A DNA stretch of 48,517 nucleotides from Nitrospiraceae bacterium (GTDB lineage: Bacteria; Nitrospirota; Thermodesulfovibrionia; UBA6902), in NCBI GenBank assembly GCA_003599425.1, contig QZKC01000087.1, positions 1 to 48,517 of the forward strand, in the 5' to 3' direction. The notes under the pieces were generated by a model. That model searched no databases. It was not told the DNA's origin and saw only the letters and a program-made list of their open reading frames with translations. This document shows positions 178 through 46,721 of this stretch, piece after piece; within the stretch, counting starts at the first letter, position 1; each line of letters begins with the position of its first letter. The position numbers and the translations under genes are program-made.

Positions 178-747
178 ATGTCAAAGGAAGAAAAACCTCT
201 GCCAAAACCACCGTCCACCCCCTTCGGAAAGAAAAGGTCTTCTGAGGATGAGAACAATAAAGAACCCCTTATGGCTGACCAAATGGCAATAGCAATGTCT
301 GAGGGTAAACTTGAGGAATTCCTGCAGAGCAACATCCCTGACAGTGAATATGCACGGAAACTCGCAGAGATGATGATGGGCATGACAGGCATGATGCCAG
401 CAGAAGGATTTCCAAGCCCCCCTGCAGAGAAAATTTCAACTCAAGAGAAGTCGTCCGGCGCCCAGCCGCCTGAGGATGTAATAAGCGCTGTACAATCCGG
501 AGACGTCAAGTCAGTTATTGAAATACTTGCGCGGGAACATGCAAAGAGGACAGGCAGCTCAGTGACAGATGCTGCTCAGGAAGAAAAAACTGCTGTGGCC
601 CCATCGCCCGATAGTCCGACCATTGATAAAGATGTTATTGAGCAGTTCATAAAGATAGCATCGGAAAATGGTCTTTCCCTTGACTGGCTCTTACTCAGGG
701 CGCTTAAGCGCTATGTGGAAGAGTATAAAAAGAACGGCAATTTGTAG
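178..747 (+). CDS. Hypothetical acidic, Pro/Glu-rich protein
   Basis: I do not recognise this 189-residue protein. The N-terminal third is low complexity, rich in Lys, Pro, Glu and Ser, followed by a Met-rich segment around residues 62-75. A second Pro/Ser/Glu linker runs at about 75-95, and the last 50 residues look like amphipathic helices. There is no signal peptide or membrane segment. The start at 178 has no clear ribosome-binding site. It converges on the CobW-like gene with a single base between the two stop codons, so the two genes probably share a terminator region. Confidence that it is translated is moderate, because it is a long open frame in a tightly packed position. No function is proposed. 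Confidence 0.6.
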   Translation: MSKEEKPLPKPPSTPFGKKRSSEDENNKEPLMADQMAIAMSEGKLEEFLQSNIPDSEYARKLAEMMMGMTGMMPAEGFPSPPAEKISTQEKSSGAQPPEDVISAVQSGDVKSVIEILAREHAKRTGSSVTDAAQEEKTAVAPSPDSPTIDKDVIEQFIKIASENGLSLDWLLLRALKRYVEEYKKNGNL

Positions 748-1857: not shown

Positions 1858-2985
1858 CTACGATTCCAAAACCCCCATCACCTGCTTTTTTATCTCAAGA
1901 TGGTGGAGCGTGATAGGCGGGACATCCTTATTACGGGGTATTGCCAGAGCATGGATGAACCTCACCCTTTTATGCGGCTTTTTCAGGGCAGTGATCAACT
2001 GCCGTTTCCCTGCGACTCTCTGCACGTCCCTGATACCAAACCCCTGTGCCACCAGACTGAGGTCTACGCATGAACCGGTCAGGGTTGGCTGGTCTCCTGT
2101 AGATCCGTAAGAGCCGTTATCAACCGCAAAGATGGTAAGGTTCTTTGGGGAAAAGTGTGCTGCTGTTGCAAGCGTGCCGGGGTTCATGAGGATGCTTCCG
2201 TCGCCGTCTATTACGATGACCTCTTTATCCGATGCAATGCTTATCCCCAACCCGACAGGGGTTGCCATCCCCATGCTGCCGAGCATGTAGAAATTTGATG
2301 GCTGATGTTTAACGGAGAACAACTCCTTTGACGGGAATCCGAGGTTGCAGACAATCACTTTTGAATTAAGATAAGGCGCTATCATCTTCAGAATTTCAAA
2401 GCGGGTTAATTGTGGTTTTACTTTTCTGGCAACATGTGCTTCCGTACGTCCTGAAACAGGACATGACGGCAGTTCCGGAATATCAGTATCACAAACACCT
2501 TCAAAGACAGCGGGGCTCAGGAGGAATGCATGTATACGACCATTTTTATATATATCCGGAAGTCTCTCTTCTACCTTCCTGAAATCTTTCTTTGTACGAA
2601 TTGTTGAATACGCAATACCCGCGCCTTTCAATATGTGGGGAAGGCGCCGCCCCATAGGCAACTGAGCTGCTATTTTCTCTTTGTAAATTCCGCGCTGACT
2701 TATGAAGATCGCAAGCGGCAATTCATAGAATCCGGTCAGGGAAAGCAGCGCGTTGATCATATTGCCGATACCTGAACTTTGCACGAACATGGCAGGCCTC
2801 TTCCCAGCAAGGGCTATCCCGGCGCTGATGCCAACACCTTCTTCTTCCCTTGTCAGCGGCACATGGAAGAATTCCTTCTGTACTCCATAGAGAAGCCCCC
2901 TTATCTTTTCACAGGGAAGAGTCAGGACAAAATCCATTTTATTTTTTTTCAAAATAGCGATCAGCTCACCTTCAGGCGATTGCAC
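1858..2985 (-). CDS. comDE: Sulfopyruvate decarboxylase, fused ComD-ComE
   Basis: This 375-residue thiamine-diphosphate enzyme decarboxylates 3-sulfopyruvate to sulfoacetaldehyde, a step of coenzyme M biosynthesis. Residues 1 to about 165 form the ComD (pyrimidine-binding) half, with a glutamate cluster at 47-49 and the motifs IGNMINALLSLT and LPMGRRLPHIL. Residues about 195-375 form the ComE half, with the diphosphate/Mg motif GDGSILMNPG at 261-270. In many archaea the halves are separate subunits; here they are one chain. The start overlaps the end of the cysteate synthase gene by 25 nt, implying translational coupling. Phosphonopyruvate decarboxylase and acetolactate-type enzymes are relatives. 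The neighbouring cysteate synthase makes the sulfopyruvate assignment strong. It would act in the cytoplasm. Confidence 0.93.
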   Translation of the reverse strand: MQSPEGELIAILKKNKMDFVLTLPCEKIRGLLYGVQKEFFHVPLTREEEGVGISAGIALAGKRPAMFVQSSGIGNMINALLSLTGFYELPLAIFISQRGIYKEKIAAQLPMGRRLPHILKGAGIAYSTIRTKKDFRKVEERLPDIYKNGRIHAFLLSPAVFEGVCDTDIPELPSCPVSGRTEAHVARKVKPQLTRFEILKMIAPYLNSKVIVCNLGFPSKELFSVKHQPSNFYMLGSMGMATPVGLGISIASDKEVIVIDGDGSILMNPGTLATAAHFSPKNLTIFAVDNGSYGSTGDQPTLTGSCVDLSLVAQGFGIRDVQRVAGKRQLITALKKPHKRVRFIHALAIPRNKDVPPITLHHLEIKKQVMGVLES

Positions 2986-4217
2986 AGAAGCTCCTCCATT
3001 TCCTCATCTCTGATGCTCTTTGATACGAATACAGGTTCAACTCTGTATGTCTTCATATGCTCTTTCAATTTCTTTTCTCCGCCGCCGGTAATGTTCAATA
3101 AAACCGTCTCGTCCTTTTTGATATGGCCGCTTCCGACCGCTTTACAGAGCGCGGCAACACCAACGCCCGCAGCCGGTACAATATCAATACCCTCTGCCCT
3201 CTCGAAAAGCTCCATTGCAGCATACACATCATTATTCTCTATTCCGTACATCATGCCTCCTGTAGCATGGAGGGCATCAAAAATGCCGCCCGTGATCGAA
3301 TATGCAGGATAGCGGGTCGAAAGCACCCTCGTTGTTATCAACCCGATCAGTTCAGGGTTCAGGTCCTCGCGGAACAGCTCCCTGCTGCCTTTCTCCCACG
3401 CCTTAACCATCGGAGCGAACGGCAAATTCTGCGCAAGATGCAGAACAGGAAGCCTCGAACCAAATCTTCCGTCACTAAGGAATCTTTCTGACATCTCCCA
3501 TACCGCAACAGCACCAGCGCCGCTGCCGACCGCCTGAAAGTAGCGGTCAGGCAGTCTCCCTATCCTTGAGACAGCCTCGAGAAGGACAATGCCGAGGCCG
3601 TCCCTCTTTGCAATGTTCTTTACTCCGCCTTCAAAGGGATAACCGAGGGTCAGCGCGATCCTTCTGGCAAGATCGATCGCATCTGAATAGTCGCCGTCTT
3701 CAAGAGCAAGTGTCGGGATCCTTAATGATGCCTCAAGGTACCACATCTCAAAAAGGCACATTCTCGGCACAACAATGACCATAGGAAATTCGGTAACGGT
3801 CGAGAGATGCGCAAACGCCCGAGCAGTATTTCCTGCTGACGCCGCGACCATCCCCTTGATGCCGTGTGAACGGGCATTCTCAAGGACCACTGCTGCCTCA
3901 AATTCCTTGAACGTGCAGGTCTGAAGATGCGCCCCTCTTTCAGGCCAGTAACCATTGAATGCGATGAAAAGATTATTCAGCCCCAGTTCTTCAGCAAGTC
4001 TTTCTGATCGAAAGACAACCGGCCCCGGCTGAGTGAATTCCGGGTTATGTACCGGCAGCCAGTTGAACTTCCAGACGCCTTTACGGTCACGCTCCAAAAA
4101 ATTGCTCTCATTGTATTCTGTCACAAGAAGCGCATCCTTGCAGTGCTCGCACGTGATACACCCTGTATCAGTTGTAACCGCTCCGCACTTTCTGCATTTT
4201 AGATTGTAATGGCTCAT
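2961..4217 (-). CDS. Cysteate synthase (threonine-synthase fold, PLP)
   Basis: This 418-residue PLP enzyme is predicted to convert O-phosphoserine plus sulfite to L-cysteate, the entry to CoM biosynthesis in Methanosarcina. An N-terminal zinc-ribbon-like region has CxxC pairs at C8/C11 and C23/C26. The candidate PLP lysine is K104 in TCTFKEFEA. Further motifs are ASAGNT (phosphate binding), YFQAVGSGAG and LNITGGG. The stretches NGYWPERGAHLQTCTFKE and LHLAQNLPFAPM resemble archaeal cysteate synthase more than ordinary threonine synthase. I chose ATG 4217 because it aligns with the short N-terminus of the archaeal enzyme; a TTG at 4241 would add eight residues. The overlap with comDE, the next pathway enzyme but one, supports the call. 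A transaminase from elsewhere would be needed between them. Confidence 0.92.
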   Translation of the reverse strand: MSHYNLKCRKCGAVTTDTGCITCEHCKDALLVTEYNESNFLERDRKGVWKFNWLPVHNPEFTQPGPVVFRSERLAEELGLNNLFIAFNGYWPERGAHLQTCTFKEFEAAVVLENARSHGIKGMVAASAGNTARAFAHLSTVTEFPMVIVVPRMCLFEMWYLEASLRIPTLALEDGDYSDAIDLARRIALTLGYPFEGGVKNIAKRDGLGIVLLEAVSRIGRLPDRYFQAVGSGAGAVAVWEMSERFLSDGRFGSRLPVLHLAQNLPFAPMVKAWEKGSRELFREDLNPELIGLITTRVLSTRYPAYSITGGIFDALHATGGMMYGIENNDVYAAMELFERAEGIDIVPAAGVGVAALCKAVGSGHIKKDETVLLNITGGGEKKLKEHMKTYRVEPVFVSKSIRDEEMEELLCNRLKVS

Positions 4218-4249
4218 ATGATTAAAACATAGCAAATCCAAAAGTTATT

Positions 4250-4341
4250 TCCCCTCCCTTGACGGGAGGGGACTAAGGGGAGGGTGACAAAATAATTCTA
4301 TACCGCCCCCACCCTCGCCCTCCCCCGTCAAGGGGGAGGGT
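4250..4341. repeat. GC-rich hairpin repeat, family B (copy 1)
   Basis: Two adjacent palindromes of the CCCTCCC...GGGAGGG kind (for example TTGACGGGAGGGGA and CCGTCAAGGGGGAGG) lie between hdrD-like and cysteate synthase genes. Similar elements occur at 29803-29884, 36494-36590 and 40593-40678. All four lie between genes transcribed in the same direction. They would form strong RNA hairpins inside polycistronic mRNA. Confidence 0.85.
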
Positions 4342-4350
4342 ACTAGGCAT

Positions 4351-5553
4351 CTATATCAACTCCGACAGCAGTTCCATGATATCTACTATCTTAATCTGTT
4401 TATCATGCCCCTGCATGGCTTCATTGACCTTCTCATAACAGGCCGGGCAGCTTAATATAAGCTTATCAGCTTTTCTGGCAACAGCTTCGTCAATCGTAAG
4501 CCTGCCCATTGCGACGGCGTTCTCATGAAAGACCTTCCGCGCAGCCCCGCCCGCACCACAGCAGCGCGAATCAAGGCCGTGCCTCTCAAATTCCAGAAGC
4601 TGGATTCCGGGTATTTGAGAAAGGATGAATCTCGGCTCAGCGATTATTCCTACGCCCCTGCTCAGGTAGCACGGATCATGATATATGATCCTCTCCTTCA
4701 ATCCTTTTTTAATGTGCAATTTTCCCTTTTTCAATGCATCCTCAACATACTGGGAGAGGTGCCTTATTTTAAAGGGCAGTGGTTTTCCATACAATGAAGG
4801 CCAGTCCTTTACCATGATATTCACGCAGCAGGGACAGGAACATAAAAGCATCTTAACTCCTCTGTCCACATATGCTTTGACGAGCCTGTTGACTAAATTT
4901 TTTAGCATATCGTGCTGTCCTGTGATGAACAAGGGAAATCCGCAGCACACCTCTTCTTCCGGAGGCAGCATGGTAAACTGCTCGCCAATGGCAGAAAGGA
5001 CGCGCACATCGCCCCTTACCATGGGCTGTGCGAGGTACGCTCCGGTGCAGCCGGCGTAATACGCTATGTCGGCCTTCTCAGCTACCCGTACTTCTGCCGG
5101 AAACCAGGGACTATATCTCTCGGCAGTTGGTTTTTCATATGGGTTACCCGTGCGCTCTATTGCTCCGGGGGTGTTCGCCTGCGGGCCGATAGGCCCCAGT
5201 CCCCGTCTCACCATTTCTTTCCTGAGCATGGGCCAGAGTCTCTCTGTGAAGATGCCGGCAGGGCAGGCCCTTCCGCAGCCTCCGCAGGTCGTACATTCAA
5301 AAACCGCTTTTGTAAAATCCTCAAGCAGCTTGCGGTCAATCTCTGACGGGCCAAAGAGAGTTGACTTGAGCCCGTCTGTAGCCTTTATGAATTCTCTGAA
5401 CATGCGGATCTTTTCCGGAGGTGAGACTGAAGGATCACCGGTCACATCCTGTACAGGGCAGCGCTTCAGGCATTCGCCGCACTGGGTGCAGGCATCAAGC
5501 TCCAGCAACTGCTTTTGAGAAAGACAACTTATGAAGGTATCTTTATCTTTCAT
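4351..5553 (-). CDS. hdrD: HdrD-like iron-sulfur disulfide reductase subunit
   Basis: This 400-residue protein has two classic 4Fe-4S motifs (C22/C25/C28/C32 and C87/C90/C93/C97) and two complete CCG domains. The first CCG domain uses C169, C203-C204 and the C238-C243 cluster; the second uses C295, C331-C332, C369 and C372. The order and length match the catalytic subunit HdrD of Methanosarcina heterodisulfide reductase. In that enzyme the CCG domains hold noncubane clusters that cleave the CoM-S-S-CoB disulfide. GlpC, LutA/LldE and DsrK share the fold. Here the gene overlaps a cytochrome b gene by 11 nt and precedes two CoM biosynthesis genes, which favours a CoM-containing disulfide as substrate. 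The thiol partner is unknown. It probably sits at the inner face of the membrane on the cytochrome. Confidence 0.82.
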   Translation of the reverse strand: MKDKDTFISCLSQKQLLELDACTQCGECLKRCPVQDVTGDPSVSPPEKIRMFREFIKATDGLKSTLFGPSEIDRKLLEDFTKAVFECTTCGGCGRACPAGIFTERLWPMLRKEMVRRGLGPIGPQANTPGAIERTGNPYEKPTAERYSPWFPAEVRVAEKADIAYYAGCTGAYLAQPMVRGDVRVLSAIGEQFTMLPPEEEVCCGFPLFITGQHDMLKNLVNRLVKAYVDRGVKMLLCSCPCCVNIMVKDWPSLYGKPLPFKIRHLSQYVEDALKKGKLHIKKGLKERIIYHDPCYLSRGVGIIAEPRFILSQIPGIQLLEFERHGLDSRCCGAGGAARKVFHENAVAMGRLTIDEAVARKADKLILSCPACYEKVNEAMQGHDKQIKIVDIMELLSELI

Positions 5554-6229
5554 GCATTATGCCTCCATGCTCCTCCTCGCGTTTGCGCGCTTCAAGCAGG
5601 GTGAATGGCGCTGCGAATATGTGCGTGGGCAGATATGCCAGAAAAACAAATGCCGCGATAAAATGTACAACGAACAGATAGCTTTCAGGAGCCGTAGCAA
5701 ATCTGAACGCAAGCGCATTGGAGATAAAGTTTTTTATACTAATGATGTCAGGGTGTATGAAATTTTTCATTATGAGCCCGGTGACGCTGAGAAGGAACAA
5801 CAGCGACAAAAGAAAAAAATTCCCGCTCGAAAAATACCTTGTCTTCTCTACCCACAGCTTTATTGCCACAACATAGACAAGCGCCACAGGAAGCACATAC
5901 CCTGCGAGCATCCCGGCAAACTGAAGGTTCATAAGCCAGTGAGGAGCAGTATCCAATACATACCTCAGGTGCCTCACCAGAACAAGAATAAATGACATAT
6001 GAAATACCCATTCTCCAATCCACAGGAGCGGATTGCTCCGTAACAGCCTTGTGAAAAAAATAATATCCCTTCCGGTTTTAAGGATCTCAAGCAAAGAAGC
6101 CTTGCGTGGCTGTAATGCTCCGTGTTCTGTGTGTCCGGACAACTTCAGCAGGAGCACTATGCGCCATACAATTCTCCACAGGAATATGGCGTAACAGAGA
6201 TAGGCGAATATGATTAAAATAGTTCCCAT
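5543..6229 (-). CDS. hdrE: HdrE/NarI-like cytochrome b membrane subunit
   Basis: This 228-residue integral membrane protein has about five hydrophobic segments (roughly 5-28, 70-95, 105-130, 133-155 and 185-210). Candidate heme b ligands are the histidines in WVFHMSFILVLVRH and VVHFIAAFVFLAYLPTHIF. The NarI, DsrM and HdrE families share this architecture; the length is close to HdrE and shorter than typical DsrM. Its 3' end overlaps the HdrD-like gene, so the two likely form an HdrDE-type complex that takes electrons from membrane carriers such as menaquinol to reduce a disulfide, or runs in reverse. AGGAG lies almost on top of the assigned ATG, so the precise start is uncertain. Confidence 0.78.
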   Translation of the reverse strand: MGTILIIFAYLCYAIFLWRIVWRIVLLLKLSGHTEHGALQPRKASLLEILKTGRDIIFFTRLLRSNPLLWIGEWVFHMSFILVLVRHLRYVLDTAPHWLMNLQFAGMLAGYVLPVALVYVVAIKLWVEKTRYFSSGNFFLLSLLFLLSVTGLIMKNFIHPDIISIKNFISNALAFRFATAPESYLFVVHFIAAFVFLAYLPTHIFAAPFTLLEARKREEEHGGIMHER

Positions 6230-6312
6230 TCTCCTGTCTCTATCCCGGATTATTCATAAATTTTATTTAACAAGCCATAGTTCAAATCCTGAATATATTT
6301 AAGCTTGCCTGA

Positions 6313-6627
6313 TTAATCCTTTGAAAAAACAATACTCACATCCCTCGGAACTGACAACCCTGCCTCTGCCTCTATTGCCTTTAATATCCCGCTAATCACT
6401 GGGCAGGCAACATGCCTGACATGCTGTGAAGCTGACTTATAAACGGGGTTGATCATATGATTCGTAAATATTGCCAGCATGTCGACCTCAGCAATGTCCT
6501 CCTGCATCTTACGGACCATCTCACATTCCGTATCCAGAATGACTTTGACCTTTTTGCCCTTTTCTTTCTCTGCCGTTATATTCACTGTAAAGCCGCACGC
6601 GCCGGCCTGAACTGTTACCTTTGTCAC
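6313..6627 (-). CDS. Small Cys-containing protein of methyltransferase operons (DUF6951-like)
   Basis: This 104-residue soluble protein has three cysteines at about positions 10, 34 and 75 (AGACGF, DTECEM, VACPVI). It resembles small proteins, possibly DUF6951, that occur next to corrinoid methyltransferase genes in anaerobes; I recall this resemblance but cannot verify it. No catalytic motif is recognisable. The GTG start overlaps the stop of the corrinoid activator gene as GTGA, so the two are translationally coupled. The coupling suggests a role with the activator or corrinoid protein, perhaps metal or cluster binding. That role is inference. Confidence 0.7.
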   Translation of the reverse strand: MTKVTVQAGACGFTVNITAEKEKGKKVKVILDTECEMVRKMQEDIAEVDMLAIFTNHMINPVYKSASQHVRHVACPVISGILKAIEAEAGLSVPRDVSIVFSKD

Positions 6628-8597
6628 CCTTTTATCTCCACCCTGCTGCCGGACTTGGCAAGCAACTCCTTCAGGTTAGGGAACCGGTCTTTCATATGCG
6701 GGATGTGCATTGCCTGCATGAATTCTTTTTCAAACGCAGGGTCTGTTGCGATCTCTATAAACTCCACCCACCGGGCCCGTTCACTGGCCTCTATGCGTTT
6801 TCCCCTGTTCAGAAGCGCCATTCGCGCACCGTCACCAGCGGCATTGCCGACAGCGTATACTTTATCAATGTGACAGTCCGGGAACATCCCAAGGGTCAAT
6901 GAAGCCTCCCGGCTGATATGGCTTCCGAACGCCCCCGCGAGGACTACCCGGTCGATCTCTGTAATGCCCAGTCTCTTCATCATCAGTTTTGCGCCTGCAT
7001 AGAGCGCTCCCTTTGCAAGCTGAAGCGCCCTGACATCCCCCTGCGTTACAGTAATGTCAGTACCGATGGATGTCTCTTCTGCCCAGGCAAGGACATACTC
7101 TGGTTTTCCGTCCGAGCCTTTCCTTACTCTGGGCGTCTGCAGATCCATAACGAACTTGCCTGACTTGTCTATTATCCCGGCCTTGAACATCTCGGCAACG
7201 ACCTCAATAATACCTGAACCGCATATGCCTTTGGCATTGATCTTCTCCAGATGAGAATGCCAGTCAGTTTTGCCAATGACCTTGTACCTCGGTTCCTTTG
7301 TATCCGGGTCGATCTGGACCACCTCGATCGCTCCCGGAGCTGCCCTCATGCCGAATTTGATCTGCGCGCCTTCAAATGCAGGCCCTGTTGCGCAGGATGT
7401 CGAGCAGACCTTGTTCCAGTTGCCGAGAAGAAGTTCGCCGTTTGTGCCTATATCGATAACCAGCATCATTTCATTCTGATTGTACGGCTCCTCGGCTATA
7501 AGCACGCCCACGTTATCAGCGCCGACAAACCCTGCTTCTATCGGCAGTACGTGGATATAAGCTGAGGGATTTATCTTCAGCCCGATATCACGCGCCTTGA
7601 TGTTCAGAGAATTCTGCACCGCCGGGATAAAAGGTGAACGCCCAATGTATACCGGGTCAAACCCGAGCAGGATGTGGTGCATGGCTGTGTTAAAGACTAT
7701 GGTCAGATCATCGATAGCATGGCCGGGATGAGGGCCATCTTTTTTGATTTCAGAGACCACCCTTTCAATGATCTCGTTAAGGCCGGTTATGATTGCCTTT
7801 TGCATAGTGTCAAGCCCGTCAGGATTGGTCATGGCATAGGTTATGCGCGACATCACATCCTCTCCGTAAGGCACCTGCGGGTTCATCATGGACTCTGTGT
7901 TGACGACCTTGCCTGTGCTCAGGTCCGTAAGATATCCTACGCAGGTGGTGGTCCCGACATCTACCGCAAGCCCGTAACAGGCTTCTTCAAATCCGGGTTC
8001 CACTTTTATTATCTCCCTGTCCATCCATACCGTTACCGTTACCCTCCATTCGCCCTTTCTCAGGACCGTCTGCAGGTCTTTCAGCACCAGGTAATCAAAT
8101 TTAAGCTCCTTCAGTCCATAGTCGTCTTCGAGAAACTTCAGTACCCGCTCATAATCTCCAGTCGTCATGTCATGCAGGGAGGGTGGCTGCAGTACGACAT
8201 TATATTTCTTCACTGCCGGGTCAAGGGCGATGATGAGTTCCTTTGCAGCCTTGCGCACAACCTGTTTTCCTGCCCTGGAGCGCTCAGGCACAAAGACCTT
8301 CAGGTCTCCGTAGACTCCTGCCGAGCAGGCAAGGCGCATACCGGGGCCGTCTTCAGGCTTGATATGTTTTTTCTCATCTTCGGTCAGCGGGGAAAGATGC
8401 GACATGCCTGAGTCGATGTTGTCCTTCTCAAAATAACCTTCTTCGATCCTGACCTTGCATTTGCCACAAACCTTCTTGTTCCCGCACAGGGCCTCAATAT
8501 CAACGCCGAGAGACTGCGCAGCCTCAAGAAGTGTTTTCCCCTCCTCTACTTCGCCCCTTCTGCCTGAGGGCTGGAATATTACCTTGTGTTTTTTCAT
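6624..8597 (-). CDS. Corrinoid reductive activator (RACo/RamA-type ATPase)
   Basis: This 657-residue protein has an N-terminal plant-type 2Fe-2S domain (C38, C44, C47, C91). A linker follows, and then an ASKHA ATPase domain of the DUF4445 type from about residue 210, with phosphate-binding motifs GLAVDVGTTTCVGYL, MLVIDIGTNGELLLG and VLAGAFGSHISRE. This layout is that of RACo (the activator of the acetogen corrinoid protein), not of RamA, which has C-terminal 4Fe-4S clusters. Such proteins use ATP to reduce inactive Co(II) corrinoid to Co(I). Its target here is most likely the corrinoid protein encoded at 9444-10136. AGGAG seven bases upstream of ATG 8597 supports the start. A repeat-bearing gap of 187 bp separates it from the QueG-like gene upstream. 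Confidence 0.92.
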   Translation of the reverse strand: MKKHKVIFQPSGRRGEVEEGKTLLEAAQSLGVDIEALCGNKKVCGKCKVRIEEGYFEKDNIDSGMSHLSPLTEDEKKHIKPEDGPGMRLACSAGVYGDLKVFVPERSRAGKQVVRKAAKELIIALDPAVKKYNVVLQPPSLHDMTTGDYERVLKFLEDDYGLKELKFDYLVLKDLQTVLRKGEWRVTVTVWMDREIIKVEPGFEEACYGLAVDVGTTTCVGYLTDLSTGKVVNTESMMNPQVPYGEDVMSRITYAMTNPDGLDTMQKAIITGLNEIIERVVSEIKKDGPHPGHAIDDLTIVFNTAMHHILLGFDPVYIGRSPFIPAVQNSLNIKARDIGLKINPSAYIHVLPIEAGFVGADNVGVLIAEEPYNQNEMMLVIDIGTNGELLLGNWNKVCSTSCATGPAFEGAQIKFGMRAAPGAIEVVQIDPDTKEPRYKVIGKTDWHSHLEKINAKGICGSGIIEVVAEMFKAGIIDKSGKFVMDLQTPRVRKGSDGKPEYVLAWAEETSIGTDITVTQGDVRALQLAKGALYAGAKLMMKRLGITEIDRVVLAGAFGSHISREASLTLGMFPDCHIDKVYAVGNAAGDGARMALLNRGKRIEASERARWVEFIEIATDPAFEKEFMQAMHIPHMKDRFPNLKELLAKSGSRVEIKG

Positions 8598-8655
8598 TCG
8601 TGATTCTCCTGAGTTGCTACACCGCTCATATTATTAAGAAGTTCGCAAGTAAGGT

Positions 8656-8745
8656 GTCATTCCCGCTTGTCGGGAATCTCGGAGCGAGTCTCGCGTAGAG
8701 TCGCTTCGACTTTTTGAAGAGAGACTCCGGACAAGCCGGAGTGAC
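8656..8745. repeat. Palindromic intergenic repeat, family A (copy 2)
   Basis: This 90-bp element has ends GTCATTCCCGCTTGTCGGGA and CTCCGGACAAGCCGGAGTGA, with an inner palindrome AGTCGCTTCGACTTT. It fills most of the gap between the corrinoid activator and the QueG-like gene inside the methyl operon, and could act as an mRNA hairpin there. Confidence 0.8.
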
Positions 8746-8784
8746 AAATCACGGTCTCATACTTATGAACTCCTTATCTTATTA

Positions 8785-9447
8785 TTAATAACAGGCCTCG
8801 GCCTTGTGTTCTTCCTTTTTATGGATCTTCCTCCCATACGGACAAATGGTTATGCACAATCCGCAATTCGGTTTGCCGCTGACCTCTTTTATTTCTCCCT
8901 TATGTCCCCTGCAATTGTTAAGTCTGACAAGTTCTATGTACGGTTTATTCCTGGACCACTCATTGCCGGTTATCGCCACGGAGGGACAGAATTCAACGCA
9001 CAGCGAGCACTCGCCGCATTGACTGGTCTCGACCGGTTTACTGGTAATCAGCGGGGCGTCTGTCAGCACAGTTGTAAGGGAAAGGCGCGGGCCGAATTTC
9101 GGATTAATCAGAAGACCGTTCCTGCCGATCCACCCCAGCCCTGCGGAGGTGGCGGCGATTTTATGAGGAAAGAGAGGATAAAGCTTTGCTATGAACGTGT
9201 CCTTTATCCTGTCTGAATCAGCAGGTATGCTCAAATACCTGAAGCCTTTCTTCTTGAGGATCGTGACCGCCCTTTTTCTCAGGCCTGACAGAATACGCAA
9301 CGTGTTCTCATTGAGATTACGGCATACCCCTATGGATATGGCCCTTTTCAGGTGTGCTATTTCAGGCTTGAGAATGCCTGTTACATCGGCAAAGCCGACA
9401 ATATCCGCACCTGCCTCAAGAAGCGCCTTTTCGAGTTCATCGTTCAT
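8785..9447 (-). CDS. Short QueG-like 4Fe-4S protein of the corrinoid operon
   Basis: This 220-residue protein resembles epoxyqueuosine reductase QueG. It has the family segment GLGWIGRNGLLINPKFGPR at about residue 103, a CxxCxxCxxxCP motif (TSQCGECSLCVEFCPS), and a second set NNCRGH...PNCGLCITICPYG. E. coli QueG has about 380 residues; this protein lacks the C-terminal HEAT-like extension. QueG itself is a cobalamin enzyme. A shortened relative coupled to a corrinoid protein gene (ATGA overlap at 9444-9447) is therefore more likely an electron donor or repair partner of the corrinoid system than a tRNA-modifying enzyme. That role is inference. Confidence 0.75.
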   Translation of the reverse strand: MNDELEKALLEAGADIVGFADVTGILKPEIAHLKRAISIGVCRNLNENTLRILSGLRKRAVTILKKKGFRYLSIPADSDRIKDTFIAKLYPLFPHKIAATSAGLGWIGRNGLLINPKFGPRLSLTTVLTDAPLITSKPVETSQCGECSLCVEFCPSVAITGNEWSRNKPYIELVRLNNCRGHKGEIKEVSGKPNCGLCITICPYGRKIHKKEEHKAEACY

Positions 9448-10136
9448 GAACCCTTCTTAGCCTCGGCCTCTTCTTTCATCTTTTTCAGGGAGCTTATCAT
9501 ATTGATAGCATCCTTAAGTGCGTTCGTTGCGTCAGGAGAATAGCCGTCCGCGCCCCATTTTTCAGCTATGTCCTGTGATACAGGAGCGCCGCCAATCATG
9601 ATCTTCACATCAGGGTTCTTTGCCTTAAGGTCATCGATGACTTTTTTCATGCCGACCATTGTTGTGGTCATCATGGCTGAAAGGCATACAAGATCAGAAT
9701 GCGTTTTCATATGCTCCTCAACGAACTTGTCAAGCGGGACGTCTTTGCCCAGGTCATATACCTGGAAGCCGGCAACATCGAACATCATCTTCACGATATT
9801 TTTCCCTATGTCATGGACATCGCCTTCCACGGTGCCTATTACCACAGAGCCTCTTATTCCGAGATCAAGCTGTTTTACGTGCGGCTTTAAAATGTCCAAG
9901 CCTACATAAAGGGCATCGGCGCACATGAGAAGCTCCGGCACGAAGTACTCCTGCGCTTCAAAAAGCCTTCCTACTTCTTCCATGCCGCTGACCAGGCCGT
10001 TGAATATCGCATCGTTAGCGTCCATTCCCTCGTCAAGAGCCATCTGGGAAAACTCCTTGGCGGCATCTTCATCGTACTGGATGACCGCGTTTTTCAGCGT
10101 CTCCAGTATCTCTTTTCTTCTTTCTTCTGTTGCCAT
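9444..10136 (-). CDS. Methyltransferase corrinoid protein (MtbC/MttC/MtoC type)
   Basis: This 230-residue protein carries the methyl group on a cobalt corrinoid. Residues 1-90 form the helical cap (B12-binding-2) domain. Residues about 95-215 form the Rossmann-like B12 domain, with the base-off/His-on signature DVHDIG at 106-111 (cobalt ligand H108), LVCLSAMMTTT and the MIGGAPV loop. The family passes methyl groups between a substrate-side and an acceptor-side methyltransferase. Here both an MtrH-family and MtaA/MtbA-like partners are encoded just upstream, so it would be the hub of the relay. AGGAGG upstream of ATG 10136 supports the start. The gene lies eight bases after the MtaA-like gene. 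Confidence 0.95.
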   Translation of the reverse strand: MATEERRKEILETLKNAVIQYDEDAAKEFSQMALDEGMDANDAIFNGLVSGMEEVGRLFEAQEYFVPELLMCADALYVGLDILKPHVKQLDLGIRGSVVIGTVEGDVHDIGKNIVKMMFDVAGFQVYDLGKDVPLDKFVEEHMKTHSDLVCLSAMMTTTMVGMKKVIDDLKAKNPDVKIMIGGAPVSQDIAEKWGADGYSPDATNALKDAINMISSLKKMKEEAEAKKGS

Positions 10137-10144
10137 ATGTCAAA

Positions 10145-11179
10145 TCACCTCCTGTATTGTTTTACTTCATCCATCATAGCGTTAAAATTGGCCGGGGGTA
10201 CAGTCGGCCATATATCGCATCCTGGCCACACAGCGCTTACTCCATTGTTCATACATTGTTTGATAGTCTCCCGAACCTGATCGGTTGTCCCGGAGACAAG
10301 GACATTGTAGGGGTCGTAGTTCCCGAACAGCAGTGCGCTGTCACCTATCTTCTTCCTCGTCTCCGCAACGTCGTTCTTCTGATCCACACTTATGGCCTTT
10401 GCTCCTGAATCAAGCATGAAAACAGCGATGTCGTTGGTCTTTCCGCAGATGTGCAGGACAGTGTTGAGTTCCAGCTTCGAGAATATTTTCTGCAGATAGG
10501 GAAGTATGAGGGTTTTGAACACCCGCGGGCTCAGCACATCCGACGTGGCCCCCATTTCCCTGACCGTAATGTAGTCAGCGCCTGCCTTTTCATACTCTTT
10601 CGCGATTATAATGAGTGCATCCGCAAGCTTATCGAGCAACTTTCCCACTTTATCAGGCTTTTTGAAAGATAATTTCAGGAGCGTATTCAGTTCCATGACC
10701 TGGCCGGCGAGGGTAAACGGACCCAGCACGTGCGCTCCTGCAACAACCTCTCCGCCGATGTCTTTCTTCATCAATCCTATGGCCTCCCTCATCAAAGGGA
10801 CCCTGCCCCTTTCCGTAAGCCCTGAGGGAATGGCAATATCCATTTCGTCTTCGCTGTTGACCAGCTTGGTCTTGATCGTCGGATAGAGTATGTCCTCAAC
10901 ATGGGAATACACATTTACTGCGCATCCCAGCGCCTCTGCCTCTACGCAGAGGTCAAAAGGGACCACGCCGCATTCAAATCCGAACAGCTTATATGTCGAT
11001 GCTGCGGCATCGGCCATCATTTTTGCATCGGAGTGGACCGCGGCAAATTTATAACCGAATTTCTTGAGTCCTTCCGTAGTAACATTCCCCATGCCGCTGA
11101 AACAGGGCGGCCTGTCTATCTTCTCCCCTGCAAAGAGTTTTAAAACCCTTTCCCTCGGGGTCATTGCGTCATCTGGCAT
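10145..11179 (-). CDS. MtaA/MtbA-like methylcorrinoid:thiol methyltransferase (UroD fold)
   Basis: This 344-residue UroD-fold protein has the zinc-thiolate signature of methylcobalamin:CoM methyltransferases: H243-x-C245 in VLHICGKTND and C321 in WPGCDIWPTVP. MtaA and MtbA use this zinc to activate CoM-SH and exchange a methyl group with the corrinoid protein. Length and motif spacing match MtaA closely. The start ATG 11179 follows AAGGAGG. It lies between the MtrH-like gene (25 bp upstream) and the corrinoid protein gene (8 bp downstream). With CoM biosynthesis genes in the same block, CoM is the natural thiol substrate. An O-demethylase of the VdmB/MtoB kind is the alternative. True uroporphyrinogen decarboxylase is unlikely given the zinc ligands and neighbours. 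Confidence 0.85.
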   Translation of the reverse strand: MPDDAMTPRERVLKLFAGEKIDRPPCFSGMGNVTTEGLKKFGYKFAAVHSDAKMMADAAASTYKLFGFECGVVPFDLCVEAEALGCAVNVYSHVEDILYPTIKTKLVNSEDEMDIAIPSGLTERGRVPLMREAIGLMKKDIGGEVVAGAHVLGPFTLAGQVMELNTLLKLSFKKPDKVGKLLDKLADALIIIAKEYEKAGADYITVREMGATSDVLSPRVFKTLILPYLQKIFSKLELNTVLHICGKTNDIAVFMLDSGAKAISVDQKNDVAETRKKIGDSALLFGNYDPYNVLVSGTTDQVRETIKQCMNNGVSAVWPGCDIWPTVPPANFNAMMDEVKQYRR

Positions 11180-11204
11180 ATTTCCTCCTTATTGTTCTCC
11201 GCTG

Positions 11205-12152
11205 TCATTTCCTTGCTGCTCCTGCAATGAGCTTCTCAATGAAGTCAGGGAAATATTTTCTGATAGGCAGATTCATGTTGTCAGGGATAACCTGCGTTTC
11301 CGTGTAAACAAGTGTGGAGAGCAGCATATGGGCTGTTGCAACCGCAGGGAACACACGGGGCGCGGTAACGATCGGCCCGTAAAAATTGAAGTCGCTCCAC
11401 AACACTGATGCCATTCCCTGTGCAGCCGCGTCCATAGCCCTGAATCCTTCAATGCCCCACATCTCCTTTGATTCCTTCCACATGTGCGTTCCATTAGAGT
11501 ACGCTCCTCCGCACGGAAGGCCTGTCTTTTCCTTTATCAACCTGTTCGCTATCAATGAAAATGACGTTGCGGGGAGATTCATAACGGACGTATCCACAAT
11601 AACAGAATCAAAATCCCCGGCTCCCTGCGCCATGAGAGCTTCGAGTGACTTAAGTCTTCCGGCAGGGGTCTGATCTTTATCATCAAATGCCTGAACAACG
11701 ACATGCTTAATGCCAAGCTCTTTTAATCTGCTGACCTGTCCTTTGATGTCTTTATCCCACGGGGTAATGCTGTTATACAGGAACTTGTCCTGTACCCCGA
11801 GTTTTGCAACATACTCCGTTGCCTTGGCCCTTTTTTCCGCGACCCACATATCTATGCCGAACGGCATATCGGTGGTCTCAAGATAAAAATCAATATAGAT
11901 CTGCGCCTCTTCAGCAGTGTTCGCAACCATGGCAACCATTGAAGGGATCCCAGTTGCAACCGACAGTTCTTCCTGTTTTCTTATCAGGTCTGTGGCCTTC
12001 TGCCGATCAAAGTTCCCCTTCCGGTCCTGAAGTATCCTGTCTTTGTTGTGAAACATGGACGCTATGAGGAACGGGGGGTTCTCTCCGGGCTGCCCGCCGA
12101 TCCTTGCACCGCCAATTCTGTATGTCTTTTGCTCTTTCGAAAATACGAACAT
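11205..12152 (-). CDS. mtrH: MtrH-family methyl-tetrahydropterin:corrinoid methyltransferase
   Basis: This 315-residue TIM-barrel protein belongs to the MtrH family, which moves a methyl group between tetrahydromethanopterin or tetrahydrofolate and a corrinoid protein. The N-terminus FSKEQKTYRIGGARIGGQPG is typical of MtrH, and the segment VDTSVMNLPATSFSL is typical of the pterin-binding barrel. MtgA and MtoA (glycine betaine and methoxy-compound systems) are relatives. I moved the start to ATG 12152 because AAAGGAG lies just before it and because MtrH proteins begin at this point. No other subunit of the archaeal membrane Mtr complex is encoded in the window, so it would act as a soluble enzyme with the corrinoid protein encoded two genes downstream. 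Confidence 0.9.
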   Translation of the reverse strand: MFVFSKEQKTYRIGGARIGGQPGENPPFLIASMFHNKDRILQDRKGNFDRQKATDLIRKQEELSVATGIPSMVAMVANTAEEAQIYIDFYLETTDMPFGIDMWVAEKRAKATEYVAKLGVQDKFLYNSITPWDKDIKGQVSRLKELGIKHVVVQAFDDKDQTPAGRLKSLEALMAQGAGDFDSVIVDTSVMNLPATSFSLIANRLIKEKTGLPCGGAYSNGTHMWKESKEMWGIEGFRAMDAAAQGMASVLWSDFNFYGPIVTAPRVFPAVATAHMLLSTLVYTETQVIPDNMNLPIRKYFPDFIEKLIAGAARK

Positions 12153-12169
12153 AATTCTCCTTTGTGTTA

Positions 12170-12258
12170 TAAGCAATCAACTATCAGCTTTCAGCCGTCA
12201 GCTTAAAAATCTGACAACTCTTGCTGACTGCTGATAGCTGATTGCTGAACGCTTTCTA
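12170..12258. repeat. Family C repeat (AGCTGACTGCTGAT type)
   Basis: This AT/CTG-rich imperfect inverted repeat has arms near AATCAACTATCAGCTTTCAG and GCTGATAGCTGATTGCTGAA. Related copies lie at 14176-14262, 21470-21528 and, partially, 25767-25800; a fragment lies near 131-150. It occupies the gap between the CMD-like and MtrH-like genes. Single copies are degenerate. Confidence 0.65.
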
Positions 12259-12777
12259 AAATACGCCGTGATCAAACTTCGGCTGCGGCAAGTATTCCCA
12301 TTTCTCGCCTTTTCTGTATTTGGCCTCGATATCCAGGCATTTAAGTGCGTACTCAAATGCATAAGGTATTCCGGGACCTCCCGGCACAAAACCCGCCAGG
12401 ATCATTCCGACAGAAGCAGCCTCGAATATTTCACCTGTGGTCGCGCCTGCATTGATAGCTGGGATAACATGGATTATGCACCTTGGGGAACAGTATCCAA
12501 CTCCGCCTGCCATAAACATCAGCTCCTTGACTTTCCTCGACAGCGCTCCGTCTCCAAAAATGCTCGCGTAGAAATCGGCAAACGTCCTTCCGGGATCAGG
12601 GGTGACCGTATTTATGATCTGAAACATTCTCGGGACAAAACCACATTTCTCCTTCATATACGCATTTACTTCTTCAAGTGTCATTTTCTTGGCATCTGAC
12701 ATAGCGGCCTCCTTTTTGTGCTCAGAAATATTACTTTTCTGAGTGAATAGTTTTTTGAGTTCATCAAAAATCCCCAT
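12256..12777 (-). CDS. Carboxymuconolactone decarboxylase-like (AhpD-fold) protein
   Basis: This 173-residue AhpD-fold protein has the redox or catalytic segment GGVGYCSPRCIIHV, but the spacing is CxxxCxxH rather than the common CxxCxxxH. CMD/AhpD proteins include decarboxylases and thiol peroxidase partners, and many have unknown roles. There are two plausible starts: ATG 12777 and an in-frame ATG at 12702. Both follow an AAGGAGG sequence at good spacing, the second being where the conserved domain begins. The extra 25 residues are charged and helical. Its position between a UroD-fold methyltransferase and the MtrH-like gene points to a part in the methyl pathway, but the reaction is unknown. 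Confidence 0.82.
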   Translation of the reverse strand: MGIFDELKKLFTQKSNISEHKKEAAMSDAKKMTLEEVNAYMKEKCGFVPRMFQIINTVTPDPGRTFADFYASIFGDGALSRKVKELMFMAGGVGYCSPRCIIHVIPAINAGATTGEIFEAASVGMILAGFVPGGPGIPYAFEYALKCLDIEAKYRKGEKWEYLPQPKFDHGVF

Positions 12778-12822
12778 TTAACCCTCCTTTACGGAAAGAT
12801 TGTGAATCACCACCTCCTCTCT

Positions 12823-13851
12823 TCAAAGTTTCCATTCCCTGGCAACCTGGATGAATTTCTGTATGTTCTCATACGGTACAGTGGGAGGTATATCGCAACC
12901 AGGCATGAGAATAAATCCTCCGTCAGTCCCAGCAGTCTGTATGACACGCCGGCTGGCATCTTCCACATCCTTTACACTGCCCTGAAGCATAATATGTACA
13001 GGGTCCACATTCCCTGCAAAACACATCTTCCCATGCAGAACTTCTTTTGCCTTCGCAATATCGGTCTTGTGGTCAAGGCTGATGCAGCTCGCTCCCGTCC
13101 GGGGGAAAAGGTCCAGCCGGTCAGTAGTATTGCCGCAGATATGAACAAGAGTATGAACGTTCTTTGATTTTGCCCAGTCAGTAAGCTTCTTCAAATAGGG
13201 AAGCGCGAATTTTTCGAACTGTTTTTTCGATATGAGATCGCCTGACGCAGTCGGGTCAGCTATGCTTAAGAGCTCAAGAGTGCCGTCAGAGACAACCGGT
13301 TCATAGAGGTGAATAAGCAGATTAGTGGCAAAGTCCACAACCTTCAGGACAAACTCAGGCTTTTTGAACGTGGCCTTCATCATCGTTTCCTCGCCGACAA
13401 ACCGCGCTCCCAGCGTATACGGCCCCCATGCTGTCATAGTAACAAGATATTCTTTGCCGATTCTTGCTTTGGTTTCCCTCAATGCATTTTTGACGGTATT
13501 GATCACAGCTTCCGTATCTATCTTTGATAGATCAAGCTTCAGAATGTCTTCCTCTGTCGCAACAATATGCGATTCGAGGTCAGGGGCCCCTATCTCCCTG
13601 AACTTTATGCCGCCTCCCAATGCTGCCGCATGGAAATTATTGTATCCCGATCCGGCATATACTATGTCACAAAGGAGTTTGCCGGAAAGTGAAACAAGCA
13701 TATCGGTCATTTTCCCAGCATTCAGCGATAAGTCCTTAAACGTAGTACCAGAGTCTTTAATGCTCCACATCCCTCCTCCAAAGAGAGAAACCGGGACGCG
13801 GTCGGATTTCCCGCCTTCCAAGGCCTTCATCACTGTTTCACGCGGTGTCAT
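12823..13851 (-). CDS. Second UroD-fold methyltransferase (MtaA/MtbA or O-demethylase type)
   Basis: This 342-residue UroD-fold protein has the zinc motif H237-x-C239 (LVHICGNTTD) and C319 (MPGCDIPPTVP), the same signature as the protein at 10145-11179. The rest of the sequence is clearly different from that paralogue. It is the first gene of the methyl operon. I prefer ATG 13851, which follows AGGAGGGG, over ATG 13866. Two UroD-fold enzymes with one corrinoid protein suggest one acts on CoM and the other on a methyl donor, as in O-demethylase systems with VdmB/MtoB-like proteins. Which does which cannot be decided from sequence alone. No MtaB, MtmB or MttB type substrate enzyme is present in the window. 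Confidence 0.82.
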   Translation of the reverse strand: MTPRETVMKALEGGKSDRVPVSLFGGGMWSIKDSGTTFKDLSLNAGKMTDMLVSLSGKLLCDIVYAGSGYNNFHAAALGGGIKFREIGAPDLESHIVATEEDILKLDLSKIDTEAVINTVKNALRETKARIGKEYLVTMTAWGPYTLGARFVGEETMMKATFKKPEFVLKVVDFATNLLIHLYEPVVSDGTLELLSIADPTASGDLISKKQFEKFALPYLKKLTDWAKSKNVHTLVHICGNTTDRLDLFPRTGASCISLDHKTDIAKAKEVLHGKMCFAGNVDPVHIMLQGSVKDVEDASRRVIQTAGTDGGFILMPGCDIPPTVPYENIQKFIQVAREWKL

Positions 13852-14005
13852 AACCCCTCCTGTCATTGAAAATTAATAAATATAGCTCAGTTATCTATAA
13901 AGGAATATGGCTTTAAAACAAATTATATCTCAAAAACCGTTAAAGTCATAATAAATCTTTTCGAAGTGCGTTAGAAAATGAATCGTGTGATAGTATGTCT
14001 ATAAA

Positions 14006-34800: not shown

Positions 34801-35079
34801 CTTGCTGAAGACCTCAAGATAAAGAACGGTGACAAGGTTATTGTATCCTCGGCACGAGGGAGGGTGCGTGCAGTGGCTATGGTTACAAGAAGGTTCAAAC
34901 CCTTCAAGGTCATGGACTCAACAGTCCATCAGGTTGGCCTGCCCTGGCACTTCGGATGGCAGTTCCCTGAGGACGGCAGCGCCGGAGACAGCGCGAACCT
35001 GCTCACGCCGACTATCGGCGACGCAAATACAATGATACCGGAGACAAAGGCGTTTCTGGTGAATATAGAAAAGGTATAG
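31879..35079 (+). CDS. fdhA: Selenocysteine formate dehydrogenase catalytic subunit FdhA (in-frame UGA)
   Basis: The frame is read through TGA at 32488-32490, giving a 1066-residue protein with selenocysteine at residue 204 in HQARI-U-HSATVAALAES, the normal selenocysteine context of formate dehydrogenases. A Tat signal (VTRRDFLKLSG, RR at 5-6) sends it to the periplasm. A 4Fe-4S site follows (C49, C52, C56, C84), and then bis-MGD molybdopterin domains, including GRGAMTNHWIDVRNADVI, MGGNPAENHP and a C-terminal dinucleotide-binding domain. It oxidises formate to CO2 or reduces CO2. Metal is Mo or W; the tupABC genes directly upstream favour tungsten. AAAGGAGG precedes the start. It is not a pseudogene: both halves are intact and in frame. 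Confidence 0.97.
32507..32523 (+). promoter_or_regulatory. Candidate bacterial SECIS hairpin of fdhA
   Basis: CGGCUCU-GGC-AGAGUCG forms a 7-bp stem with a GG-starting loop, beginning 16 nt after the UGA codon. This distance and a G-led apical loop fit bacterial SelB-binding SECIS elements. It lies inside the coding sequence. Confidence 0.65.
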
Positions 35080-44434: not shown

Positions 44435-45325
44435 ATGAATAGTCCATTATCCGCAGGGGCCCTCTTCAGGGCTGCAGTGCGTGAAGAGACGCCGTTGCAG
44501 GTAGTTGGGGTTGTCAATGCCTATGCAGCGCGCCTCGCGCAAAGCGCAGGTTTCAGTGCCCTCTATATATCAGGAGGAGGCGTTGCCGCAAGTTCACTCG
44601 GGGTCCCGGACCTCGGCATCAGCACTATGGACGATGTGCTCACCGACGTCCGCCGTATTACTGATATAACAAATCTCCCTGTTCTGGTTGACATCGATAC
44701 CGGCTGGGGCAGCGCCTTTAACATTGCACGCACCGTAAAGTCCATGATCAAGTTCGGCGCGGCAGCCGTACATATAGAAGACCAGGTACAGGCAAAACGC
44801 TGTGGCCACCGTCCGGGCAAGGCGATCGTCAGCAAGGAAGAAATGGTCGACCGTATCAAGGCAGCGGTAGACGCAAAGACAGACGAGCAGTTTGTTATCA
44901 TGGCAAGGACCGATGCCCTCGCTGTTGAAGGCCTTGAGTCTGCCATTGACCGCGCAAGCGCCTGCGTGGAAGCCGGCGCTGACATGATCTTCCCGGAAGC
45001 GATCACCGATCTTGAAATGTATCGGCAATTTGCTCAGGCGGTAAAAGTCCCCATTCTCGCCAACATTACTGAATTCGGATCAACCCCCCTGTACACGGTC
45101 GAGGAATTGCGTCAGGCAGAGGTCTCGCTCGTGCTCTATCCCCTGTCCGCGTTCCGCGCGATGAGCAAGGCGGCGTTGTCCGTATATAACGTGATCCGCA
45201 CAGAAGGTACCCAGAAGAATGTGATAGATAGTATGCAGTCCAGGACAGACCTTTATAACCACCTCGATTATCATTCATTTGAGAAAAAACTTGACAGTAT
45301 TTTTTCCAAGGAGGAATTAAGATGA
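44435..45325 (+). CDS. prpB: 2-Methylisocitrate lyase PrpB
   Basis: This 296-residue isocitrate-lyase-superfamily enzyme cleaves 2-methylisocitrate to pyruvate and succinate in the methylcitrate cycle. Motifs: [49 protein letters not shown] (the KRCG catalytic loop). The start aligns with PrpB of enterobacteria. It overlaps prpC by 4 bp (ATGA). Confidence 0.96.
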
Positions 45326-46473: not shown

Positions 46474-46510
46474 CAGCGGGTAAACTTAAACATGTACGGT
46501 ATAGGGAGGC

Positions 46511-46655: not shown

Positions 46656-46721
46656 AACAAGAAGGTATCCACAGAAAAGCAACAAGAAGCCTGATTAAAT
46701 ACGAAAGAGAGAAAAATAATT

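Follow-up and report, generated by a model that had tools for sequence, protein, structure and literature searches.

A conserved Nitrospirota operon with coenzyme M biosynthesis genes and a putative methyl relay without detected methyl-coenzyme M reductase

Coenzyme M (CoM) is known from methane and alkane archaea and from one bacterial alkene/epoxide pathway. The question addressed here is what a bacterium of the Nitrospirota does with genes for cysteate synthase (CS) and ComDE, two archaeal-type enzymes of CoM synthesis, in one block with genes for corrinoid-dependent methyl transfer. The block is located at positions 1858-13866 on the minus strand of contig QZKC01000087.1 from Nitrospiraceae bacterium (GCA_003599425.1), the whole 48,517 nucleotides of which are called the window in this text. 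The window is contig 12 of the organism's own genome (G000), an assembly of 2.9 Mb that is 89.6% complete. The favored reading, at a probability of roughly 0.74, is that the block makes CoM and operates a CoM-dependent methyl relay without methane formation. The observations behind it are the genes themselves, their conservation and co-occurrence, the absence of methyl-CoM reductase (MCR) from the genomes examined and an archaeal counterpart, and CoM synthesis and methyl-carrier use appear likely in these bacteria.

The block and its conservation

The block runs from UroD2 (13866) to ComDE (1858), and all named genes are intact. Neighboring genes overlap by 4 to 25 bases or stand at most 187 bases apart; family scores and coordinates agree with the initial annotation, which had placed the named genes on one strand with overlaps or short gaps. 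DUF6951, the QueG-like protein, the CMD/AhpD-like protein and a CobW GTPase are added to it here.

12823-13866, minus: UroD2, another MtaA/CmuA-like enzyme and candidate methyltransferase on the substrate side (TIGR01463, 182 bits)
12256-12777, minus: CMD/AhpD-like protein (PF02627)
11205-12152, minus: MtrH-family methyltransferase, pterin side (NF002142, 340 against a cut-off of 287)
10145-11179, minus: UroD1, MtaA-like, proposed methylcorrinoid:CoM methyltransferase (PRK06252 and TIGR01463 above cut-off)
9444-10136, minus: corrinoid (B12-binding) protein (TIGR02370, PF02310/PF02607; DxHxxG present as DVHDIG)
8785-9447, minus: QueG/RDH-like 4Fe-4S protein that may donate electrons (partial match to TIGR00276, 66 bits, below cut-off)
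6624-8597, minus: RACo/AcsV-like reductive activator of corrinoid protein (PF14574, PF17651; NF040756, 475 bits, cut-off 800)
6313-6627, minus: DUF6951, small protein (PF22263; invariant Cys/Cys/His/Cys)
5543-6229, minus: membrane cytochrome b, HdrE/DsrM-like (NF038037, 58 bits, cut-off 300; hydropathy)
4351-5553, minus: HdrD-family subunit (CCG sites and 4Fe-4S motifs, two of each; archaeal matches; tree)
2961-4241, minus: CS (TIGR03844, 474 bits, cut-off 324.9)
1858-2985, minus: ComDE, fused sulfopyruvate decarboxylase, 375 residues (TIGR03845, TIGR03846; GDG..N thiamine pyrophosphate motif)
749-1624, minus: CobW/G3E GTPase, probable metallochaperone, possible block member (PF02492)

The assignment of CS next to a fused ComDE, made in the initial annotation, is borne out by the family models. 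CS lies well above its cut-off and is 47% identical across 417 columns to the protein of Methanosarcina sp. DH2; its first ATG is at 4217, and its gene overlaps that of ComDE by 25 bases. ComDE scores 173.8 against a cut-off of 147.95 with the alpha model and 219.1 with the beta model, 2.4 bits short of 221.5, both parts being in one chain. The corrinoid protein reaches 203 bits with TIGR02370, slightly below the cut-off of 215.3, and UroD1 reaches 246 bits with TIGR01463, for which the cut-off is 235.4.

The operon is a conserved Nitrospirota system. CS was above its cut-off in 43 of 295 sampled Nitrospirota genomes, a set that leaves aside G080 with a CS fragment of 213.6 bits, and its presence is patchy within families (three of 11 genomes in one of them). 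An orthologue of UroD1, defined by an identity of 65% or more, accompanies CS in 43 of 43 genomes and is also present in G076, G080 and G291. These are the only three among the 252 other genomes, without full CS, to have it, or four if a 79% identical fragment at a contig end in G269 is counted. DUF6951 accompanies CS in 42 of 43 genomes and is found in G076, G080 and G291 as well. Gene order was compared in 41 loci, namely 40 from the 43 CS genomes (G093 and G277 were left out) and the window. The order UroD2-CMD-MtrH-UroD1-corrinoid protein-QueG-like-RACo-DUF6951-cytochrome b-HdrD-CS-ComDE is kept without departure in 38 loci, as far as contigs and 20-kb cuts extend, and the other three show a swap or an additional HdrD copy. 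Two of the 38 loci consist of CS and ComDE only, and the remaining operon is found on another contig, which holds all of it in G198 and in G227 starts with its MtrH. A FolD-like gene, named by eye, lies within the operon in five loci, and five relatives have a longer cytochrome b-like protein (cluster Y2) at the cytochrome b position.

Outside the phylum, the relatives of CS were assessed in the best 80 of at least 510 confirmed loci, comprising 23 loci of the Nitrospirota clade, 43 archaeal and 14 other bacterial ones. The closest to the window CS, among the matches listed, are from Nitrospirota, first Thermodesulfovibrionia DeMMO2_3 and Nitrospirae NC_groundwater_1882. ComDE is near CS in 22 of the 23 Nitrospirota-clade loci and 38 of the 43 archaeal loci, and in two of the 14 other bacterial ones. 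The 12 loci without ComDE are from Bacteroidales, cyanobacteria, Aminicenantes, Spirochaetales and others, some on short contigs; no match to UroD1, MtrH, the corrinoid protein or RACo was found beside CS in any of them, as far as the contigs extend, and two have an HdrD-type match of 23%. Because Bacteroidales and cyanobacterial loci have CS without ComDE, CS alone was rejected as proof of CoM synthesis. In the window, ComDE overlaps CS, unlike the CS without ComDE of the sulfonolipid type, and the CS belongs to a different clade. The initial annotation had proposed a phylogeny against archaeal homologues, and in the resulting CS tree, made by a quick method with SH-aLRT as its only support, the 24 Nitrospirota rows form one clade (100) next to the Hydrothermarchaeota (93). 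They group with archaeal CS that is mostly sited beside ComDE, and the Bacteroidales/Odoribacter CS is in another clade. With UroD1 in every CS genome of the phylum sample and no match to UroD1, MtrH, the corrinoid protein or RACo at the control loci without ComDE, CoM synthesis and the use of CoM to carry methyl groups, both proposed in that annotation, are still the best-supported reading of the gene content.

Three further loci were seen in this comparison. A 'Bacilli' contig with CS-ComDE (L136) belongs to a 1.0-Mb genome with MMP16 and no MCR match, and its CS groups with a methanogen, so it is perhaps misbinned. A short Omnitrophota contig (L140) also carries CS-ComDE. The Thermoplasmata archaeon G320 (locus L117) has CS, ComDE and MMP16, no MCR match, and is perhaps another MCR-free CoM maker.

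Methyl transfer, HdrD and the archaeal counterpart

The initial annotation had also pointed to MtaA-type zinc ligands in two UroD-fold enzymes. The HxC and GCxxxP motifs are indeed present in both, as HICG and GCDIWP in UroD1 when aligned to 4AY7, yet they do not point to CoM by themselves. They were rejected as proof of CoM use; HxC...C occurs in UroD1, in UroD2 and, by eye, in UroD3, and the combination of UroD, MtrH, corrinoid protein and RACo is the usual layout of bacterial O-demethylases too. UroD1 is below the equivalog cut-offs (243 against 400 for MtaA, 181 against 600 for MtbA) and above the CoM-methyltransferase subfamily models, and its best solved relative is the MtaA structure 4AY7 (166 bits). 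In the tree it groups with MtaA/MtbA-type sequences, three of which were assigned as MtaA or MtbA by model, and away from UroD2 (98/90). UroD1 resembles the MtaA/MtbA enzymes that work with corrinoid proteins and RamA, but differs from them in forming its own clade with the Hydrothermarchaeota and in being coupled to MtrH rather than MCR. Type I mlp clusters also contain MtaA-like proteins, a corrinoid protein and an activase in non-methanogens, and the main text of the paper that describes them (PMC10418091) uses none of the terms 'CoM biosynthesis', 'Nitrospir' and 'MtrH'. Solved relatives of the block's MtrH include 8Z9U and the methylcorrinoid:tetrahydrofolate methyltransferase 6SJ8.

A second MtaA-like protein, 50-53% identical to UroD1, is encoded beside a CobW-type GTPase in nine genomes (eight CS genomes and G291), and in five of the nine, genes for UroD3, another corrinoid protein and another RACo come next. 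The copy in the own genome is on contig 46 (L183), the others being L184-L191. Fuller copies hold genes for a MoxR-type ATPase, a VWA-like protein, DUF2284, UroD3, the corrinoid protein and RACo, and the cluster lies near carbon monoxide dehydrogenase and DUF1638 genes (both partly named by eye). Because of the relatives of UroD1 and MtrH, the FolD-like gene in some operons, a MetF-like gene (named by eye) that stands tail to tail with a gene called Y1 in the own genome, and this second cluster, CoM is proposed to act as a shared methyl currency.

The HdrD-like protein has both CCG domains complete, as first annotated, with full CX33-35CCX35-36CXXC stretches at residues 169-243 and 295-372 in addition to two 4Fe-4S motifs. 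Its best archaeal matches, in Methanosarcina, Methanolobus, Methanoperedens and Pyrohabitans, are 37-39% identical, against 26-32% for other homologues in the Nitrospirota searched, and pairwise scores thereby favor HdrD over DsrK/GlpC. In the tree it forms its own clade with the Hydrothermarchaeota (100/99), near but separate from the Methanosarcina-type clade, the fork between them being unsupported. The label TfrB was dropped because the Methanosarcina protein receives the identical top model. The cytochrome b has five membrane spans predicted by hydropathy and matches, among NCBIfam models, DsrM alone, far below the cut-off. Motif layout, archaeal matches and a cytochrome b partner thus liken the pair to HdrDE; on the other hand, the cytochrome b has only the sub-threshold DsrM match and no MCR was found that would form a heterodisulfide. 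Of the roles considered, reduction of a CoM disulfide is ranked first and electron supply to RACo second.

A counterpart exists in the archaeon Ca. Pyrohabitans JdFR-16, where the module fills one stretch of ~17 kb and CS, ComDE and Y1 stand in a row elsewhere. Identities to the window proteins are 48% for UroD2, 61% for CMD, 46% for MtrH, 54% for UroD1, 64% for the corrinoid protein, 62% for RACo and 38% for HdrD; the stretch also holds a cytochrome b, DUF6951 and CobW. The CMD/AhpD-like protein has CxxxC in the window and only the second cysteine in the Ca. Pyrohabitans homologue (by eye). Trees built from the sequences met in this analysis, after removal of near-duplicates and short ones, join Nitrospirota and Hydrothermarchaeota for UroD1 (100/100, with the paralogue MtaA2 included) and UroD2 (100/100) as they do for HdrD, and transfer of the whole module between the domains is the simplest account. 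The alpha subunit of MCR, the mark of methanogenesis or alkanotrophy, was found neither in the own genome nor in any of 23 Nitrospirota CS-clade genomes, in line with the initial annotation, nor in five Hydrothermarchaeota genomes; the same search was positive in seven archaeal genomes, including all six named methanogens or anaerobic methanotrophic archaea (ANME). For Ca. Hydrothermarchaeota, Carr et al. 2019 reported mtrH without mcr and suggested for methyl-CoM that it 'may have an alternate fate' (PMC6775978). The present system shares mtrH without mcr; neither its module nor a bacterial counterpart is described in the accessible part of that paper.

A candidate for the final CoM-forming step

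In Methanosarcina acetivorans, MMP16 is the main CoM synthase, according to the accessible part of PMC12068725, which also mentions that MJ1681 was expressed in E. coli supplied with sulfoacetaldehyde. The initial annotation had called the final step or steps to CoM missing and had suggested a search for an enzyme that converts sulfoacetaldehyde to CoM. As far as MMP16 is concerned this stands, since no match above 36 bits was found in the 43 CS genomes; the search did, however, yield a candidate outside the window:

Contig 10 of the own genome, 3300-4220 (L266): Y1, NMT1/THI5-like protein of ~310 residues, relative of sulfonate-binding proteins

Of the 43 CS genomes, 41 have Y1, as do G076, G080 and G223, a 28% match in G291 being left out of the count. 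It directly follows ComDE in five of five Hydrothermarchaeota loci and lies within the CoM cluster of Methanoregula SKADARSKE-2, a cluster that lacks MMP16. When 33 genomes with CS and ComDE were searched for both proteins (Y1 counted at 285 bits or more, MMP16 over its cut-off), 16 had only Y1, 13 only MMP16, two both and two neither; in archaea Y1 thus tends to replace MMP16. Neither was over its cut-off in any of 10 genomes with CS but without ComDE. Y1 is present in nine of nine genomes searched from the Methanoperedens clade, six of which are in the 33-genome table and have only Y1. The one of these six that was searched for MCR has it and therefore needs CoM. The MMP16 model gave no match in the six Methanoperedens-type genomes searched, at odds with the accessible part of PMC4683180, which gives ComDEF for a Methanoperedens genome. 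A full MMP16 was seen in one Nitrospirota assembly without CS (locus L061, G064:C157; 78% complete, 5% contamination), perhaps on a foreign archaeal contig.

The sequence relatives of Y1 in the Protein Data Bank include taurine- and sulfonate-binding proteins, and its structure model (mean predicted local distance difference test, pLDDT, 91.9) has the structural matches TauA, SsuA and the enzyme Thi5. An alignment of 15 sequences shows seven histidine and two cysteine residues to be invariant, among them Cys74, His79 and Cys257. Y1 of Methanolobus profundi, a species with MMP16 as well, is near ThiS/ThiF-like and sulfate-assimilation genes (by eye). A role as part of an ATP-binding cassette (ABC) importer was rejected because the 14 loci listed show no permease or ATPase gene within four genes of Y1 and because the protein, by eye, does not begin with an obvious signal peptide; Y1 is apparently cytosolic. 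Homologues from ANME-1, left out of the counts, look like true importers because they share only 24-25% identity, carry hydrophobic stretches at the N-terminus and have an ABC ATPase nearby. Y1 is a candidate CoM synthase that would replace MMP16. DUF6951 was likewise considered and rejected as the CoM synthase because it is missing from six of six Methanoperedens-type genomes with CS-ComDE and present in methylotrophic methanogens; its Cys/Cys/His/Cys set is invariant in an alignment of 20, and its AlphaFold2 model (pLDDT 92.7, best Foldseek E value 0.054) offers as a lead a predicted IscU/SufE-like fold.

With CS and ComDE adjoining in the order of archaeal loci, the pathway resembles the type 2 (phosphoserine/cysteate) pathway of Methanosarcina, but it is bacterial, and MMP16/ComF is absent and apparently replaced by Y1. 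Xanthobacter, which uses its CoM for epoxides, is similar in being a bacterium with CoM for a metabolism other than methanogenesis. Its route differs in beginning at phosphoenolpyruvate, as stated in the accessible part of PMC12068725.

Proposed pathway, alternatives and meaning

The activities, substrates and direction of methyl flow proposed for the system are as follows, steps 2, 4, 7 and 8 being conjectural as a whole. CS would form cysteate from phosphoserine and sulfite (step 1), a general aminotransferase would yield sulfopyruvate (step 2) and ComDE sulfoacetaldehyde (step 3), to which a non-MMP16 enzyme, proposed to be Y1 with its sulfonate-binding fold, would add the thiol (step 4). 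UroD1 would catalyze methyl exchange between the corrinoid protein, held reduced by RACo, and CoM (step 5), and MtrH would do so between the corrinoid protein and tetrahydrofolate, taking in soluble form the place of the Mtr complex of archaea (step 6). Other modules may load CoM with methyl groups, namely UroD2 and, in some genomes, the second cluster of MtaA paralogue, UroD3, corrinoid protein and RACo (step 7). HdrD and cytochrome b could reduce a CoM disulfide with electrons from the quinone pool or run in reverse (step 8).

Several observations weigh against this reading. UroD2 is below the TIGR01463 cut-off of 235.4, the fork that places UroD1 inside or beside the CoM methyltransferases has a support of 82/40, and the set of UroD, MtrH, corrinoid protein and RACo could equally serve an O-demethylase. 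Neither a disulfide partner nor a methyl donor was identified, CoB genes being outside the search. Judged at the locus only, one operon has no RACo at its usual place (L031), and two of 23 loci (L086 and L088) go from DUF6951 to CS with neither HdrD nor cytochrome b in between; a QueG-like gene was not found at one of the 23 (L069), and another (L084) has no ComDE within 10 kb of CS. The Fisher P values for co-occurrence treat genomes as independent and so overstate its strength. As to the last step, MMP16 itself is lacking from the CS genomes as described above, and the genome of L088, a further Nitrospirota genome, has a partial MMP16 match (112 bits, cut-off 364). Y1 is lacking in the CS genomes G203 and G084 and in the genome of L075 and is present in G223, which has no CS. 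There are only ~3 independent contrasts of MMP16 and Y1 on the CS tree, and a kinship-aware sign test was not significant (median p 0.5). A full MMP16 was seen in one Nitrospirota assembly without CS (locus L061, G064:C157; 78% complete, 5% contamination), perhaps on a foreign archaeal contig.

An ordinary corrinoid O- or S-demethylase of the MtvABC/MtoABCD type might stand beside sulfonate genes for another product, with CoM uninvolved; UroD1 and UroD2 would then demethylate external donors, and MtrH would hand the methyl groups to tetrahydrofolate. This would suit the four-part layout shared with bacterial O-demethylases, the methylcorrinoid:tetrahydrofolate methyltransferase among the solved relatives of MtrH and the FolD-like gene in five operons. 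It is nevertheless rather improbable, given that UroD1 is in all 43 CS genomes and only three of 252 others (four with the G269 fragment), has MtaA as its best solved match, scores above the CoM-methyltransferase subfamily models and is accompanied by an HdrD nearer to archaeal HdrD-type proteins than to other Nitrospirota homologues. That the sulfonate branch serves another product such as sulfonolipid, taurine or isethionate, with the methyl system merely in the same operon, is very improbable. CS does occur in Odoribacter and other Bacteroidales, a group that makes sulfonolipids from cysteate according to the accessible part of PMC9304779. Yet the Bacteroidales/Odoribacter loci lack ComDE and their CS is in another clade, whereas Nitrospirota CS adjoins ComDE in 22 of 23 loci and groups with archaeal CS. 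Moreover, three such genomes (those of L127, L131 and L144) have neither a Y1 match nor MMP16 over its cut-off, the first having a 132-bit MMP16 match below it.

An alternative for part of the block is that HdrD, cytochrome b and the QueG-like Fe-S protein do not reduce a disulfide but supply RACo with electrons from the quinone pool, so that the corrinoid protein is reactivated. RACo needs low-potential electrons, the three genes are near it, and MCR, the source of the heterodisulfide in methanogens, was not found. Against this, both CCG sites of HdrD are complete, HdrD is also part of the archaeal module, L086 and L088 have RACo with no HdrD in the block, and most bacterial RACo systems are not known to include HdrD. 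The electron path is therefore considered unlikely, though less so than the two explanations above, and reduction of a CoM disulfide is preferred.

As to neighboring genes, the CobW GTPase stands behind ComDE on the same strand; a CobW gene adjoins DUF6951 in three Hydrothermarchaeota genomes, and few Nitrospirota loci have one beside or close to the operon. A 189-residue protein without family (window 178-747, cluster Y0) is encoded near CS-ComDE in 16 of the 41 loci, the window included. Elsewhere in the window, a formate dehydrogenase alpha gene (31879-35079) is interrupted in frame by TGA (32488-32490), likely a selenocysteine codon, and methylcitrate cycle genes (prpB, citrate/methylcitrate synthase and prpD) lie in a row at 44435-48173.

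No report of the operon, of Y1 as a CoM synthase or of DUF6951 was found in the literature searched, subscription journals being mostly outside it. If the favored reading is true, CoM would have a new role as a methyl carrier in anaerobic bacteria without detected MCR, the operon being conserved in 43 of the 295 genomes sampled from one phylum. A wider picture is possible, although the odds are somewhat against it: an MCR-free CoM economy across two domains, with Y1 as a second, non-homologous synthase (also in Methanoperedens), methyl-CoM as the currency between demethylases and tetrahydrofolate or its archaeal counterpart, and HdrD/cytochrome b coupling a CoM disulfide to the quinone pool. 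For Methanoperedens and further lineages in which MMP16 was not found, the findings also supply a candidate gene for the final CoM-forming reaction, and they offer a testable answer to the published question of the fate of methyl-CoM without MCR in Hydrothermarchaeota. Genes for CS, MtaA-like proteins, MtrH or HdrD in a metagenome would not by themselves signify methanogens.

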